The notes below the pieces were generated by a model. That model was given only the letters and a program-made list of their open reading frames with translations. It was not told where the DNA came from and searched no databases. From a virus: a DNA stretch of 27,254 bases. Position 1 is the stretch's first letter. Each line of letters opens with the position of its first letter. The stretch lies in the IMG/VR virus record IMGVR_UViG_3300018405_000054, positions 1-27,254 of that record. One strand, written 5' to 3'. The position numbers were made by a program, and so were the translations under genes. Below, piece after piece: positions 4,903 to 10,525 of the stretch.

Positions 4903-5805
4903 TTACACCACCGGCTCGTATTTTACCGCAACGGCGTACGTGCCTGATCTGATGTTGTCGTATGTCGCTGTTGTTGTATTGCGGTCGTTGATGTTTTTGT
5001 AACTGAACGGGAATATCATCCACCGATCCGGCCCCAGCTCGATAATCGCCTCATCCTCGTAATAATCATTCCTGATGTACCGGGCGTTTTGCATCTCCAT
5101 CACCATGCCCCACTTTGAGGACAAAAACGCATGAAAACAGCGGATTGGGACGAGGATGGACTCTTGGCTGAATGCGTTAGGCTGATTGGATATGATATTC
5201 TCTACACTCCCCGTCCCGACGACAGCGGTTGTAGCTGAATCCGACGCGCGGCTATCATCAGGCCGCCAGCCGTTCCCGCTTGGATGTAAACCGTCATGGC
5301 AATAGTAGTTTCGGCGGCGGGTCAAAGAATCAAACCTTGTGCCCCCAAAAACAAGACTGTACATAGCGCTAGTCTCTGATATATTTGTGCGGACATCAAA
5401 CCCATAAGTTCCGGCAAAAAAGTTCCCCGTCCCCGGCACAGGAAGTTGTGATTGCCCGAATGTTAGGTGCATATAGGTCGCAGGGAAGATATTGACAGCC
5501 ACCCACACCTCAAAATCAAACACAAAAATATGATAAGTAATCGGATACGACCACTCCCAGTTATCAAACTCACTAATCATCACGTTATTGTCAGGGATGT
5601 CCCCGCCAATCAGAGCAGTTCGACCAGCCAAAATAATAGCGTCATGATTGGCCGTTGATCTTGTGTTTGTCCAAGTCAGCTCAAAAAACATCGTCCCTTT
5701 ACTCAGGATGGAGCCATTCCAAGTCCACCCCTCAGAAACAAAAGTGTTTACGATTGCTGTGTGTAACGCCTCTATGCTAGCGGCTGTGCCTGTATGATAA
5801 CTCAT
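4903..5805 (-). CDS. Putative virion protein of the tail cluster (300 aa, unknown)
   Basis: Not assigned to a named family with certainty. The N-terminus is a helix (SIEALHTAIVNTFV) followed by 'SEGWTWNGSILSKGTMFFEL', an arrangement seen in accessory tail proteins of many phages. The rest is rich in aromatic residues and predicted beta strands ('YHIFVFDFEVWVAVNIFPATYMHLTFGQ'), and the C-terminus is compact (DRWMIFPFSYKN). No signal peptide or TM is seen. It overlaps the upstream gene by 4 bases (ATGA). It resembles the preceding 282-residue product in plan: N-terminal helix, GW, aromatic core with 'fevwvavni', then a small beta C-terminus. The two may be diverged paralogues. Location between tape measure and tip proteins suggests a tail or fibre component (inference). 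Confidence 0.65.
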   Translation of the reverse strand: MSYHTGTAASIEALHTAIVNTFVSEGWTWNGSILSKGTMFFELTWTNTRSTANHDAIILAGRTALIGGDIPDNNVMISEFDNWEWSYPITYHIFVFDFEVWVAVNIFPATYMHLTFGQSQLPVPGTGNFFAGTYGFDVRTNISETSAMYSLVFGGTRFDSLTRRRNYYCHDGLHPSGNGWRPDDSRASDSATTAVVGTGSVENIISNQPNAFSQESILVPIRCFHAFLSSKWGMVMEMQNARYIRNDYYEDEAIIELGPDRWMIFPFSYKNINDRNTTTATYDNIRSGTYAVAVKYEPVV

Positions 5806-6650
5806 GCGTCCAACCTCATCGCGTAATAGTCGGGGAATCCCGTCCGGTAAACATCCTGAATAACCACATAATTTACGCCGTTTATTGTCAGTGTGTTTTC
5901 GACCGTGTTGTCAAATCCGGTAATATAATATATACCGTCGAGTGATCCAAAAACATTGTTGGTGATATACAGCTCAACCGGATAAATGTGATATGTCCCC
6001 ACAACATCCCGTTGGCTGTTTGTTGTGCCAAAATATGATGTACTCGCATACGGCCAGCAAAACGGCTGTATCCACACCCCCATCAAGTCACGCATCCTCA
6101 TATTAGCACGATTACCCTTATACGGCATTGAGTGAGAGGTATCGCTGAATCTGGTTGCAGGTGTACCATTGAGCATCCCGCAACAAACGACAGGGTAGGG
6201 GAATTGTGAAGGTCGGGCGTAAGGTAAAAATTTACCCACATAGGCCGACTCATAAACAGGCGTCCCGACTTTGAGGGCAAATTTTATATGTTGTGCGTTC
6301 CATGATAGCCAATAATCAAGCCGCTGGTTATGCGCGGGCACCCCTGACAGAATAGCCCCCGGCTGATTATCGAATGACTCTGCAGCGTTGTATCCGGTGA
6401 AGGTCGCAGCTGCCAGATTATAATAATCAGCGGCTGCGTCTTGATACGTCCTGAACCCAACATATATCCGCTCAAGACCGGTCAAGCCCTCGCCCTGCAA
6501 GATCAGCTCGTGATTGTCTGCGGTGTCAATATAGCGCAGCACCGTCCAGCCCATACCAAGAGCCGTCACTTCGTCCTTAATTTTGCGGAGCATGGCGTAA
6601 TGCGCCAGCTCGATGGCGTTATCAACAAACCCTATCGCATGAGGCATCAC
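5802..6650 (-). CDS. Putative virion protein of the tail cluster (282 aa, unknown)
   Basis: 282 residues. The N-terminal part (AIELAHYAMLRKIKDEVTAL then GMGWTVLRYI) is helical. Then come 'LERIYVGFRTYQDAAADYYNL', a 'YWLSWNAQHIKFALKVGTPVYESAYVGKFLPYARPSQFPYPVVCCG' block, and an aromatic C-terminus. I recognise this pattern from hypothetical structural proteins encoded next to tail-tip genes in proteobacterial phages, but no biochemical role is known to me. It begins with a 4-base overlap on the tape measure stop and ends with a 4-base overlap into the next gene, so the three are co-translated. It may be a paralogue of the 300-residue neighbour. Confidence 0.65.
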   Translation of the reverse strand: MMPHAIGFVDNAIELAHYAMLRKIKDEVTALGMGWTVLRYIDTADNHELILQGEGLTGLERIYVGFRTYQDAAADYYNLAAATFTGYNAAESFDNQPGAILSGVPAHNQRLDYWLSWNAQHIKFALKVGTPVYESAYVGKFLPYARPSQFPYPVVCCGMLNGTPATRFSDTSHSMPYKGNRANMRMRDLMGVWIQPFCWPYASTSYFGTTNSQRDVVGTYHIYPVELYITNNVFGSLDGIYYITGFDNTVENTLTINGVNYVVIQDVYRTGFPDYYAMRLDA

Positions 6651-8713
6651 TGCCCTCCCTGATTGCGTCTGACGACGTTCATGATGATTTCCTCCCCAGC
6701 GTCCGTGTCCAGATAGTCCCCCACCACCGATGGATCAAGCACGTTGATGATCCTGACGGCGTTCGGTTGCTGACCGCCGCCGCCCTTTGTATGATCGATG
6801 ACTGTCTCGTTCGGATGCAGGACCGCAGGGAACCCGCCCCGGCCATCTACACCACCAGAGCGGGAGCCGTAGCCGGTAAAACCGCCACCTTCAAAACTCG
6901 GGCTGGTGGAGCTGATCGTCGAAACAATCCCGCTCGTTGCTGCCGCCACGCTTGACATTGCCGCAAGGTTCGTCGGCCACGGATTCGCGGCTGCTTTGGC
7001 GATACCGGTTTGGATAGCCACAATAGACTCGGCTATTGAAAACGCTTTACTCACGGCAAACATAGCACGATAGATGCCCGACTGCTCTCCGGCGAATGCT
7101 TTTGTTAGCCCTGCAATCCCGTCATACAGATTAGCATAATTCTGGTAGGTTTGGCGTGCTCGTTCGTCGTCCAGCTCCTGCAAACGAGCATTTTTTTCGT
7201 CCTCAAGGGCTATTAAATCCTCATTGGTGGCAATGGTTGATTCTAACAGGGTTTCTCGCCGACGCTGGTAGGATAATTCTATCGCCTCTTCTTCAGATAA
7301 TAGGCTGTCGATAATGGATTGAGCTCTGGCGTTACGGGCGTCCTTCTCCGCTTGCGCCTTTTCTTCTGCGCGTCTGATCTTCTCTTCCCGCCGCTCCGCA
7401 AGTTCCAGCAGTTGAGCGTCTTTCTGCGCCTCCAATGCCAGCAAGTCAGTCATCGAGACAATGGAAGATTGTAACATGATCTCCCGGCGGCGCTCGTAAG
7501 AGGTGCGGATGGCCGTTTCTTCGTCCATCAGACTGTCAAGAATCGTCTGGGCCTGCCTGTTAATCCTTTCTTGTAAGGCTTGCGCCTCTTTGTCCGCTTC
7601 CTCGTCAACCACGGAGCCAGCGGTGGAGATAGCAGTTGGCACTTCGACCGCTTGCTTAGGCCCCTCCCAGGTTCCCGTAGCTCCAGCGCCCCAAGTCCCC
7701 GAAGCGCCACCTTCTTTTGAGGCATTTGGATCTACAAACTCTGCCATTCCAAAAGCCCGGCGGACGGCGTTGTCCATTCCCAAAAGCGCTTGGCTTACCC
7801 TGTTAATCTCCCCCAATACTGGCATTTCGCTGACAGGTGTGTTTCGGAGTCGATCAAAACCGTCAACCGCTTGCTCTAACACACCAACAAGATCACCAAT
7901 TCCTCGGAAAAGACCGCTGACCAGGCGGTCAGCCATTTCCAAGGTCTTTGGATCTTGCAACAATGCGGTTAGCTTTTCGATCTCTTCCCGTGCCTCCGGC
8001 AACCCGCCTTTGGCCTCCAGAAGATCACCAAACGCGTTTTTTAACCCTTGGATAGCGCCGCCGAATGTGTCCCGTGCGGCCTTTGCGCTCCCACCAAATT
8101 GCGTTTCCAGCTCTTTTAGAATGATCGATTGCGCCCCGGCGATATCGCCGACCGCCACCATGTCTTTTATCATCTCTTTCTGAACGTCGGAAAACTGGAT
8201 GCCTGAACGAGACAAGGCAGTTAAACCTTGAATCGGATCGTTCAGCGCCTTGCCGATCTGCACGGTAGCCGTGCGCAAATCCTGCCCCATCGCTGTGGCG
8301 GTGTCGAGGATCGCTTGCGTAGCCCTGGGGAACGCCTCCCCACCTATCTGCGTAAATGTCAGCAATAAGGATTGAGCGCCAATGATTGCCTCATCGCCGA
8401 ATGTGGTTACTTTTTGAAGCTGTGCAGCGTAATCTTGCAGTGACTGAGAAAGCTCTGGTGTGTAGCGGCCTGTCGAGCGCAACGTGGCCTCTAGCTGTGC
8501 TGTAACCCGCTCTTGTTCGATGGTGTTGGCAATGACCATTCGGAACGCCTGTCCGATAGCCAATGCCGATGCAAAGGCACCTAAAACTCGCGTAGCAGAC
8601 CGGAATGTGCTTTGTGCCCGGACACCAGCACGGTCAAGGTTTTGCACTTCGCGCTTTGCGGTGCGGATGTCACGGCTATCTGCTGCGAGTCTGACTTTAT
8701 AAATATCGGTCAT
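6647..8713 (-). CDS. Tail tape measure protein
   Basis: 688 residues. It determines tail length and is ejected ahead of DNA in siphoviruses. The N-terminal coil (DIRTAKREVQNLDRAG, 15-30) is followed by 'FRSATRVLGAFASALAIGQAFRMVIANTIEQE' (37-68) and 'TFGDEAIIGAQSLLLTF' (104-120), a block typical of tape measures. Residues 217-235 (FGGAIQGLKNAFGDLLEAK) are the usual conserved patch. Charged coiled coils fill about 375-525, and hydrophobic stretches lie near 530-600. The Gly-rich 'FEGGGFTGYGSRSGG' (607-620) and 'GGFPAVLHPNETVID' (626-640) are hallmark C-terminal tape-measure motifs. At roughly 0.15 nm per residue the tail would be near 100 nm. Residues 388-438 and 464-514 are a tandem duplication. 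The gene overlaps the upstream chaperone extension by 4 bases. Confidence 0.95.
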   Translation of the reverse strand: MTDIYKVRLAADSRDIRTAKREVQNLDRAGVRAQSTFRSATRVLGAFASALAIGQAFRMVIANTIEQERVTAQLEATLRSTGRYTPELSQSLQDYAAQLQKVTTFGDEAIIGAQSLLLTFTQIGGEAFPRATQAILDTATAMGQDLRTATVQIGKALNDPIQGLTALSRSGIQFSDVQKEMIKDMVAVGDIAGAQSIILKELETQFGGSAKAARDTFGGAIQGLKNAFGDLLEAKGGLPEAREEIEKLTALLQDPKTLEMADRLVSGLFRGIGDLVGVLEQAVDGFDRLRNTPVSEMPVLGEINRVSQALLGMDNAVRRAFGMAEFVDPNASKEGGASGTWGAGATGTWEGPKQAVEVPTAISTAGSVVDEEADKEAQALQERINRQAQTILDSLMDEETAIRTSYERRREIMLQSSIVSMTDLLALEAQKDAQLLELAERREEKIRRAEEKAQAEKDARNARAQSIIDSLLSEEEAIELSYQRRRETLLESTIATNEDLIALEDEKNARLQELDDERARQTYQNYANLYDGIAGLTKAFAGEQSGIYRAMFAVSKAFSIAESIVAIQTGIAKAAANPWPTNLAAMSSVAAATSGIVSTISSTSPSFEGGGFTGYGSRSGGVDGRGGFPAVLHPNETVIDHTKGGGGQQPNAVRIINVLDPSVVGDYLDTDAGEEIIMNVVRRNQGGQ
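7172..7552 (-). repeat. Internal tandem repeat in tape measure gene (two 51-codon copies, 76-codon period)
   Basis: Copy 1 at 7400-7552 (residues 388-438) and copy 2 at 7172-7324 (residues 464-514) align without gaps. Shared residues include AQ-(T/S)-I-(L/I)-DSL, EE-(T/E)-AI, SY-(E/Q)-RRRE, (L/A)-ALE and LxEL. They are separated by a charged linker (RREEKIRRAEEKAQAEKDARN). The DNA copies have diverged, so the duplication is old but visible at protein level. Such coiled-coil repeats change tape length in register. Confidence 0.8.
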
Positions 8714-9093
8714 TGCCGGAACGCCTTTTTAGTTGCTTGAGCGATTGCTCTTTTATCGGCTTGATCTTCACCATACCACGGAGGCGGCATTTCTTTGCCT
8801 TCAAATCTGTGAACCGCTGATGTGTACGCGTGACTCATGCGCATAATTGCTGCGGCCTCATATCCTTGCAGCTTGATCTCGGTAATATCCGACCAGGCTT
8901 TTATTTCCTGCCAGCTGGTTTCGTACATCCCGATTTCGATAGCTATCTCTGCCAGATACTCCCATCCGTCCAGGGGCGGGAGCGTTGCCTGTTCTCCAAG
9001 CAACTGCCCCCGCGTTTTGTCCTGCTTTTTCCCTTTTGTGTGCAGCCAGCCCAGCTGTTTTGCGTATGTTTCTAATGTCGCTAAGCTGGCGGT
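8710..9093 (-). CDS. Tail assembly chaperone, frameshifted extension (gpT-like part of gpG-gpT fusion)
   Basis: The frame is open from the slippery heptamer at 9093-9099 down to the stop at 8710. It reads TASLATLETYAKQLGWLHTK, then a charged run, then LLGEQATLPPLDGWEYLAEIAIEIGM. This adds 127 residues to the first 118 of the upstream chaperone, for a fusion of 245. The only internal initiation candidate is a TTG at 9003, which lacks a clear SD, so expression by -1 frameshift is preferred. Short chaperone plus overlapping frameshifted extension, immediately before the tape measure, is the conserved layout of lambda G/GT (established knowledge). The extension should link the major tail protein to the tape measure during assembly. 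The stop overlaps the tape measure start by 4 bases. Confidence 0.8.
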   Translation of the reverse strand, partial: TASLATLETYAKQLGWLHTKGKKQDKTRGQLLGEQATLPPLDGWEYLAEIAIEIGMYETSWQEIKAWSDITEIKLQGYEAAAIMRMSHAYTSAVHRFEGKEMPPPWYGEDQADKRAIAQATKKAFRQ

Positions 9094-9446
9094 AAAAAAT
9101 TTGCCTGTCGGACGATAAACTGATTAACCTGATTCCGGATCGGCGCGGACAGGGTGTAAACCTTAACGGCGTTGGCCTTGGAAAATTCCAGCGGCTTACC
9201 ATTCATTTCAACGCCCGTCCACCCTTGCGTCAAATCGGCGAGGAATTTTGCATCATCCTCAACCGTTGAAGCATCCACAATGCTTTTGTTTTTGATGCGC
9301 TCCTGCGCTGCTGTTTTAGCCAGCGCCCGGAACTTGTTAGAGTCTGAGCCGTAGACGGTAATCACGATGTCTGTTGGCTCGCCGGTGCGCGGATCGTTAA
9401 TCGCACAATCCGCTGTCTCTTTAGTGCTGATTTTCAAGATGTCCAT
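9081..9446 (-). CDS. Tail assembly chaperone (gpG-like)
   Basis: 121 residues, located between the major tail protein and the tape measure, the standard place for the lambda gpG equivalent. The N-terminus (ILKISTKETADCAINDPRTGEPTDIVITVYG) resembles the beta-rich N-terminal part of phage tail chaperones. It is followed by helices (SNKFRALAKTAAQERIKN; DDAKFLADLTQGW) and the 'GKPLEFSKANAVKVY' pattern found in this family. The start ATG follows the previous stop by 3 bases, with GGGGTG as likely SD. The ORF ends right after a T TTT TTA slippery sequence, so a minority of ribosomes should continue into the extension at 8710-9093. The protein is not expected in the mature virion. Confidence 0.85.
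   Translation of the reverse strand: MDILKISTKETADCAINDPRTGEPTDIVITVYGSDSNKFRALAKTAAQERIKNKSIVDASTVEDDAKFLADLTQGWTGVEMNGKPLEFSKANAVKVYTLSAPIRNQVNQFIVRQANFLPPA
9093..9099 (-). promoter_or_regulatory. -1 ribosomal frameshift site, T TTT TTA
   Basis: In the chaperone zero frame the codons are AAT TTT TTA, so the heptamer T TTT TTA is perfectly phased for a -1 slip (X XXY YYZ). It lies at codons 117-118 of 121, just before the zero-frame stop at 9081. After the slip the next codon is ACC, and the frame stays open for 127 codons. The preceding A AAT TTT also fits the pattern. A 6-bp stem (9084-9089 with 9051-9056, 27-base loop) begins 3 bases downstream and could act as a stimulator; this part is weak. 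Confidence 0.82.
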
Positions 9447-9449
9447 GTA

Positions 9450-10124
9450 TTACACCCCAAAGTTAGCAGTGACAGACAAGTCTCCCTGTACGTAAATATC
9501 CTGACGCGGGTTCTCAGTGCTGCCGTCCGACCAGTCAACAAACACATACCCCGCATCCGGAACAGCGGCAACAGGCGAACCGTTAGCTCCGAGATTGACC
9601 GTCTGCGGAGACTCACCAATCAGATACCCATTAGCCCCGGCAGTGTAGGTCAGGGTAAACGAGGTTTCACCCGGCCCGGCCACCTCAACGACCCCGTTCG
9701 GATGTTTGCGGATCGTGCAGGACTTGAGACGCACAGCGTTTGCGTCGCCCTGATCGTCCACAAGGGCAAAGACTCGCGCCTGGTAGTAATCAACGTCTCC
9801 ATCAGGATATTGCACCTTGAAGCTGTAATAATCGTCCGACAAGTGTGCAGCTCTTAGCAGTTCCTGTCCGGCGTCTGACCGGCTCACGACAAGGTTAAAG
9901 GTTGTCTCGTTCTCGTCATAGGTGCCCTTGAGATGGACAGTCGCACGCTCTTTCAGCAGGTTGTAAGTTACATCCTCATAACTCCGGCCACCACCAGTAG
10001 GTGGAGAAGTGATCTCGCCGATCTCGGTAAACGTGAGGGCCTCAAACCCCGCTTGAGTGTGTACAGCAGGCACCCCGGCGCTGATGCTGACGATTGTACC
10101 GCTTAAAGTTTTGGCTTCACTCAT
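9450..10124 (-). CDS. Major tail protein with C-terminal InlB-B-like repeat domain
   Basis: 224 residues from the ATG at 10124, which has an AAGGAG site 8 bases upstream; an upstream in-frame ATG at 10181 lacks one and would overlap the preceding gene heavily. Residues 1-155 are a beta-rich tail-tube domain ('EIGEITSPPTGGGRSYEDVTYNLL', 'GQELLRAAHLSDDYYSFKVQYPDGDVDYYQARVF'), as in lambda gpV-like tube proteins. Residues about 158-223 form a separate domain: 'GYLIGESPQTVNLGANGSPVAAVPDAGYVFVDWSDG', then 'NPRQDIYVQGDLSVTANF'. This is the consensus of the divergent InlB B-repeat (Flg_new_2) family, whose hallmark is GYxFxxWSDG. Such a domain would decorate the outside of the tube. It overlaps the upstream gene by 4 bases. 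Confidence 0.9.
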   Translation of the reverse strand: MSEAKTLSGTIVSISAGVPAVHTQAGFEALTFTEIGEITSPPTGGGRSYEDVTYNLLKERATVHLKGTYDENETTFNLVVSRSDAGQELLRAAHLSDDYYSFKVQYPDGDVDYYQARVFALVDDQGDANAVRLKSCTIRKHPNGVVEVAGPGETSFTLTYTAGANGYLIGESPQTVNLGANGSPVAAVPDAGYVFVDWSDGSTENPRQDIYVQGDLSVTANFGV

Positions 10125-10525
10125 GACTTGCTCCTTGTGATTATGGCTGTGTAGGAAATTGTTAGGACGATCTTGTACCACCCATCTTCATTGATTCCAG
10201 GCTGTCGTTGTAGCGCCGTCGTTTTAACCTCGATCCCGCCGAAGCTGAATGTTTTACCGAAGCGAAAATGGTTGAGGATCTCGTCCGCTTTTTGTTTGAT
10301 TGCGATTGCTCCGCTGTAAGACGGGTAACGAAGAATTGCCTGAAATACCCCGTCCGTCTGGTCTGAGCTGTTCAGCGTCAACGGCGTGACGTTGTTCTGT
10401 AATACACCAATCTCTGCGTAAGGCTCGCCGTTTGTGGCATCGTAGGCGGTGTTCTCGTGCGCTATTGGCAGACCAAAACCACCGGCAATAAATTCGCTGA
10501 CGAACGCCTGGTCGATTTTAACCAC
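10121..10525 (-). CDS. Tail terminator protein (gpU/DUF4128-like)
   Basis: 134 residues directly before the major tail gene, the normal site of the tail terminator that caps the tube and joins it to the head. The sequence has the fold pattern of DUF4128/gpU-like proteins: 'YAEIGVLQNNVTPLTL', 'GVFQAILRYPSYSGAIAIKQKADEILNHFRFGKTFSFGGIEV', and a final strand 'WYKIVLTISYTAII'. No catalytic motif is seen. It overlaps the preceding gene by 8 bases and the next start by 4 bases. The call rests on pattern plus gene order. Confidence 0.8.
   Translation of the reverse strand: MVKIDQAFVSEFIAGGFGLPIAHENTAYDATNGEPYAEIGVLQNNVTPLTLNSSDQTDGVFQAILRYPSYSGAIAIKQKADEILNHFRFGKTFSFGGIEVKTTALQRQPGINEDGWYKIVLTISYTAIITRSKS

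Follow-up and report, generated by a model that had tools for sequence, protein, structure and literature searches.

The slippery heptamer of the tail assembly chaperone pair G/GT in phage lambda is G GGA AAG. Lambda produces G in an excess over GT of about 30:1. The partner of G, and of the G portion of GT, is the tape measure protein, and the T portion binds the major tail protein (PMC5009743). According to Xu et al. 2004, as cited in PMC5009743, this frameshift arrangement of the chaperones is conserved in long-tailed phages. U6-type slip sites are found in P2-like tail genes, for example T6G in P2 (E/E+E'), T7G in Smp131 and T7C in others (PMC3931495). In E. coli, U UUU UUA is reportedly less shift-prone than A AAA AAG, and U UUA of HIV is reported to yield Phe in 20-30% of cases (PMC5009743). 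Our text search of the literature found no paper tying TTTTTTA or AAATTTT to tail assembly, which is weak evidence given its limited journal coverage.

Here we analyze a G/T gene pair in a 27,254-base IMG/VR virus record, IMGVR_UViG_3300018405_000054, the whole of which we call the window. The pair very probably undergoes programmed -1 ribosomal frameshifting between tail assembly chaperone genes of the lambda G/GT type. This conclusion draws on features computed here: the reading frames, the phase of the heptamer, homology, selection on T, the lack of a separate T start, and a recurring slip site and hairpin. The arrangement itself is a known one, the conserved tail-chaperone frameshift, to which an uncultured phage group is now added.

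The G/T locus and its neighbors

Open reading frames and profile matches place a tail terminator, a major tail protein, G, T and a tape measure protein in this order on the minus strand, to which all coordinates below refer. The major tail protein (9450-10127, start codon taken at 10127) matches phrog_158 (E = 3.6e-17), and the tape measure protein (6647-8713) matches phrog_1538 (E = 8.9e-38). Between them are two overlapping open reading frames. G (9081-9446) is a zero-frame protein of 121 residues that ends in ...QANFLPPA* and resembles the tail assembly chaperones of phrog_313 (E = 1.1e-14). The second frame, T (8710-9093), lies in -1 and continues for 127 codons after the slip site, from TASLATLE to AFRQ, up to a TGA stop (8712-8710) that forms an overlapping ATGA with the start codon of the tape measure gene (8713-8711). 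Under a dinucleotide model, 127 open codons in the -1 frame have a p of about 0.008. Neither a whole-contig DNA search against phage records nor a search for G in genome contigs returned a match.

An earlier note on this DNA had likened the position of the pair to that of lambda G/GT, and this was borne out, as G and T lie between the major tail protein and the tape measure and T ends at the tape measure start. The two systems are further alike in the -1 direction and in a slip near the end of G, and function is assigned by analogy; however, the window carries A AAT TTT / T TTT TTA in place of the lambda heptamer, with a strong stem predicted downstream. Similarly, P2 E/E+E' (T6G) and Smp131 (T7G) share with the window a U6-type site in a tail chaperone pair and the -1 direction. 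P2 differs in that its Z base is G rather than A, the likeness drawn here being one of site type, and in that the window has a tape measure with siphovirus-like neighbors rather than the P2 FETUD operon. The earlier note had also contrasted the heptamer with that of lambda as being of the HIV gag-pol type. It is indeed the same as in HIV-1, U UUU UUA, and is likewise followed by a stem, but the gene is unrelated and the window has the overlapping A AAT TTT and a full stem 2 nt past U UUU UUA. The match is unremarkable, since U6 sites are known in the tail genes of P2 and its relatives, and U UUU UUN occurs in several lineages here; the likeness to the HIV-1 signal is convergent.

Two observations concern the neighboring genes. 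The C-terminal domain of the major tail protein resembles Flg_new_2, a divergent InlB B-repeat (E = 1.8e-9), and is a predicted Ig-like decoration on the tail tube protein. Open reading frames 4903-5805 and 5802-6650 each match the structural protein phrog_687 and are apparently tandem paralogues.

The -1 frame as a coding region

In comparisons with two close relatives, L003 and L004 (88-92% protein identity), dN/dS in the -1 frame of T was 0.115 and 0.067, much like the 0.073 and 0.102 obtained for G, and third codon positions of T held 35/50 and 37/47 of the changes. These values, about 0.07-0.12, indicate purifying selection on T as read in -1. The match of window T to the Pfam family Phage_TAC_18 is weak (E = 5.8e-4, with a score of 20.4 under the cut-off of 27); the same family was matched by seven of eight T homologues, with a best E of 4.4e-15.

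A separate start for T in homologues, named in the earlier note as an observation that would speak against frameshifting, was looked for, and no strong one was found. Indeed, the T frame contains no ATG, GTG or TTG before the conserved LGWLH in the window, L003, L004, L018 or L022-L025. After the slip, L022 offers no start codon in this frame until codon 46 and L023 none until codon 49, and L042 has none within 66 codons.

Overlapping slip sites in the window and in relatives

The 3' end of G reads ...CAG GCA AAT TTT TTA CCG CCA GCT TAG, with the TAG at 9083-9081. Heptamer T TTT TTA (9093-9099) fits the X XXY YYZ phase exactly and is followed by three sense codons and then the stop, and it overlaps A AAT TTT (9096-9102), so that two heptamers stand in tandem, both in the phase of G. 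The coordinates and codon counts given previously, namely the phase of T TTT TTA, the three codons to the stop, the 127 codons of T and the overlap with the tape measure, all agree with the sequence and its reading frames. The other minus-strand genes, about 6,090 codons in all, contain 11 in-phase X XXY YYZ (Y = A/T) heptamers. When the codons of G were shuffled, 3.5% of trials had one such heptamer among the final 14 codons and 0.2% had two. These odds are only modest, and the case therefore rests on the homologues.

Both heptamers are present in the window, L003, L004 and L036. A AAT TTT is the sole register in L018 (whose G, 49% identical, is the nearest relative outside the 88% group), L043, L047, Effie, MD-2021a, CGphi29 and ppBdUSDA122-1. 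T TTT TTN is the sole register in eight others, where N is A (L022, L042), G (L023, L024, L025, L037), C (L029) or T (L030). More distant T homologues, all with T in -1, carry A AAA AAA (L026-L028, L031, L033, L034, L038, L039), A AAA AAG (L040, L041), G GGA AAC (L044, L045) or C CCT TTT (L035). Among relatives with an identifiable T, most retain the -1 overlap. A G-T tree, in which many of the deep branches lack resolution, puts T TTT TTN in at least two lineages and gives no direction of change.

The homologues alter the standing of A AAT TTT, which had been put forward as a second slip option. It is in phase at 9102-9096, but because several relatives, including L018, have it alone, it is more than an added option. 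Effie, CGphi29 and ppBdUSDA122-1, which carry A AAT TTT alone, at first suggested that no other slip site is genuine, but T TTT TTN is the sole register in other relatives, and this view was dropped. No canonical in-phase X XXY YYZ was found near the G end of L046. The same holds for Vibrio phage K13 (L010, 1986-2022), where T overlaps in -1, yet the sequence is GAA ACT TTT ATT CTC GCG TAG.

Predicted RNA structure after the slip site

Folding predicts an 11-bp stem (9090-9080 with 9055-9045; -19.7 kcal/mol, z -3.8) that begins 2 nt past T TTT TTA, rather than the 6-bp stem three bases downstream that had been proposed. Its 5' arm, GCCAGCUUAGC (9080-9090), holds the UAG stop of G, and its 3' arm, GCUGGGCUGGC (9045-9055), encodes residues Q-L-G-W-L of T. 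We took the canonical -1 signal to be a heptamer, a spacer of about 5-9 nt and a stem. The full stem starts 5 nt past A AAT TTT, and its 2-nt distance from T TTT TTA is short against the canonical signal; the inner 8 bp begin 5 nt past T TTT TTA. Relatives show either geometry without the other. L018, of the A AAT TTT type, forms a 10-bp stem, GCCACGUUAG with CUAGCGUGGC, in matching alignment columns and with two compensatory pairs, C-G where the window has G-C and G-C where it has C-G, and L022-L024, of the T TTT TTN type, retain a 7-bp core that begins 5 nt past the heptamer.

In L003 and L004, as in the window, the stem has z of -3.2 to -3.8, and L004 changes a U-G pair to U-A. Pooled over ten sequences, 75.5% of cells were paired versus 71.3% after shuffling (0/500), and 17-50% when the arms were slid; double-sided pair changes alone were matched by 58/500 shuffles and so are not beyond chance. 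Covariation of the predicted stem, when pooled, is modest. When synonymous codons of T were permuted, the stability of the 60 nt after the slip ranked at 17/1000 in the window, 1/1000 in L018 and 0/1000 in L042; it reached 21/1000 or better in 9/16 sequences and 27/1000 in 11/16. By the same procedure L030, L037, L009 and L012 showed no convincing structure after the slip. Two further measures from the window, L003 and L004, an invariant run of 28 nt at the slip site (p 0.34, unexceptional alone) and the low variability of the first stem (p 0.08), are weak, and neither is relied on.

A second very stable hairpin of about 16 bp is predicted within T, 80 nt past the slip site (8976-9013), with arms GCGGGGGC-A-GUUGCUUG and CAGGCAAC-GCUCCCGC. 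L003 and L004 carry changes in its loop and almost none in its stem (p 0.01 for stem variability). Weaker hairpins fold at this position in L022 and L023, and in the window the hairpin covers a TTG at 9003.

Alternative explanations

That TTG could be the start of T as a separate gene of 97 residues, made with no frameshift at all; L003 and L004 share it, and a G-rich stretch (GGGGG in the window) lies 3-4 nt upstream. We regard this as most improbable: such a start would forfeit 30 selected residues of T, LGWLH among them, it has no equivalent in the homologues L022, L023 and L042, as described above, and it is buried in the strong predicted hairpin 9013-8976. Even harder to credit is an error of sequencing or assembly at the T6 run that splits what is really one plain G-T gene. 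Homopolymer runs are classic indel sites and the source is a metagenome contig; however, the T6 run and the frames are identical in L002, L003 and L004, and diverse relatives with other sequences at this point, among them L018 and Effie with just four Ts, keep the -1 overlap, in the very place where tail chaperones are expected. The agreement of independent contigs refutes this reading in practice.

The frame might also change in the transcript, by slippage of RNA polymerase on the T6 run rather than of the ribosome. Six Ts can in principle produce some transcript heterogeneity, but the run is short for such slippage, it is just four Ts long in the A AAT TTT relatives, and the exact X XXY YYZ phase followed by a hairpin suits ribosomal slipping, so that we give this route very little credence.

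Proposed frameshift and its product

Programmed -1 frameshifting in the chaperone pair, as the earlier note had proposed, is supported by homology, by selection in the -1 frame, by the -1 overlap in diverse relatives and by the stem in relatives. The slipping, its rate and the choice of heptamer are here matters of inference. The majority of ribosomes would translate G through to its UAG, which falls within the stem's 5' arm. A minority, stalled by the adjacent hairpin, would slip -1 on A AAT TTT TTA and read on through T, giving a fusion of 245 residues (118 from G and 127 from T). Its junction would read ...QANFL-TASLA after a slip on T TTT TTA, and ...QANFF-TASLA either after a slip on A AAT TTT or where T TTT TTA takes up Phe. 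The functions of both proteins we infer from lambda, by analogy with which G would coat the tape measure protein, the T part would recruit the major tail protein, and the ratio of G to G-T would matter in tail assembly.

It is plausible that both slip registers are used in the window. Tentatively, and with rather less than even confidence, we suggest a two-register signal in which all 11 bp of a single hairpin serve A AAT TTT and the inner 8 bp serve T TTT TTA. The slip position could then move by one codon in evolution with function kept, and the window group and L036, which have both heptamers, would represent intermediate states.

For annotation, the correct G-T product is the 245-residue fusion, which start-to-stop calling of open reading frames splits or truncates. 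Effie and CGphi29 are publicly annotated with G and T as separate hypothetical proteins, an internal codon being taken as the start of T, and the MD-2021a record leaves T unannotated (L008:1633-2477, L009:1615-2486, L013:1633-2477); the G-T fusion has therefore been missed in all three.

One homologous overlap that occurs with A AAT TTT, with T TTT TTN, with both, with other heptamers and in two +1 cases makes slip-site evolution easily testable. The +1 cases are Limnohabitans phage DC31 and Curvibacter phage P26059A (L011:1995-2787, L014:1926-2697), in which the G homologues end AAC TTT CGA and a chaperone-like open reading frame follows G in +1, not -1; the direction of the shift seems to have switched at this one position.
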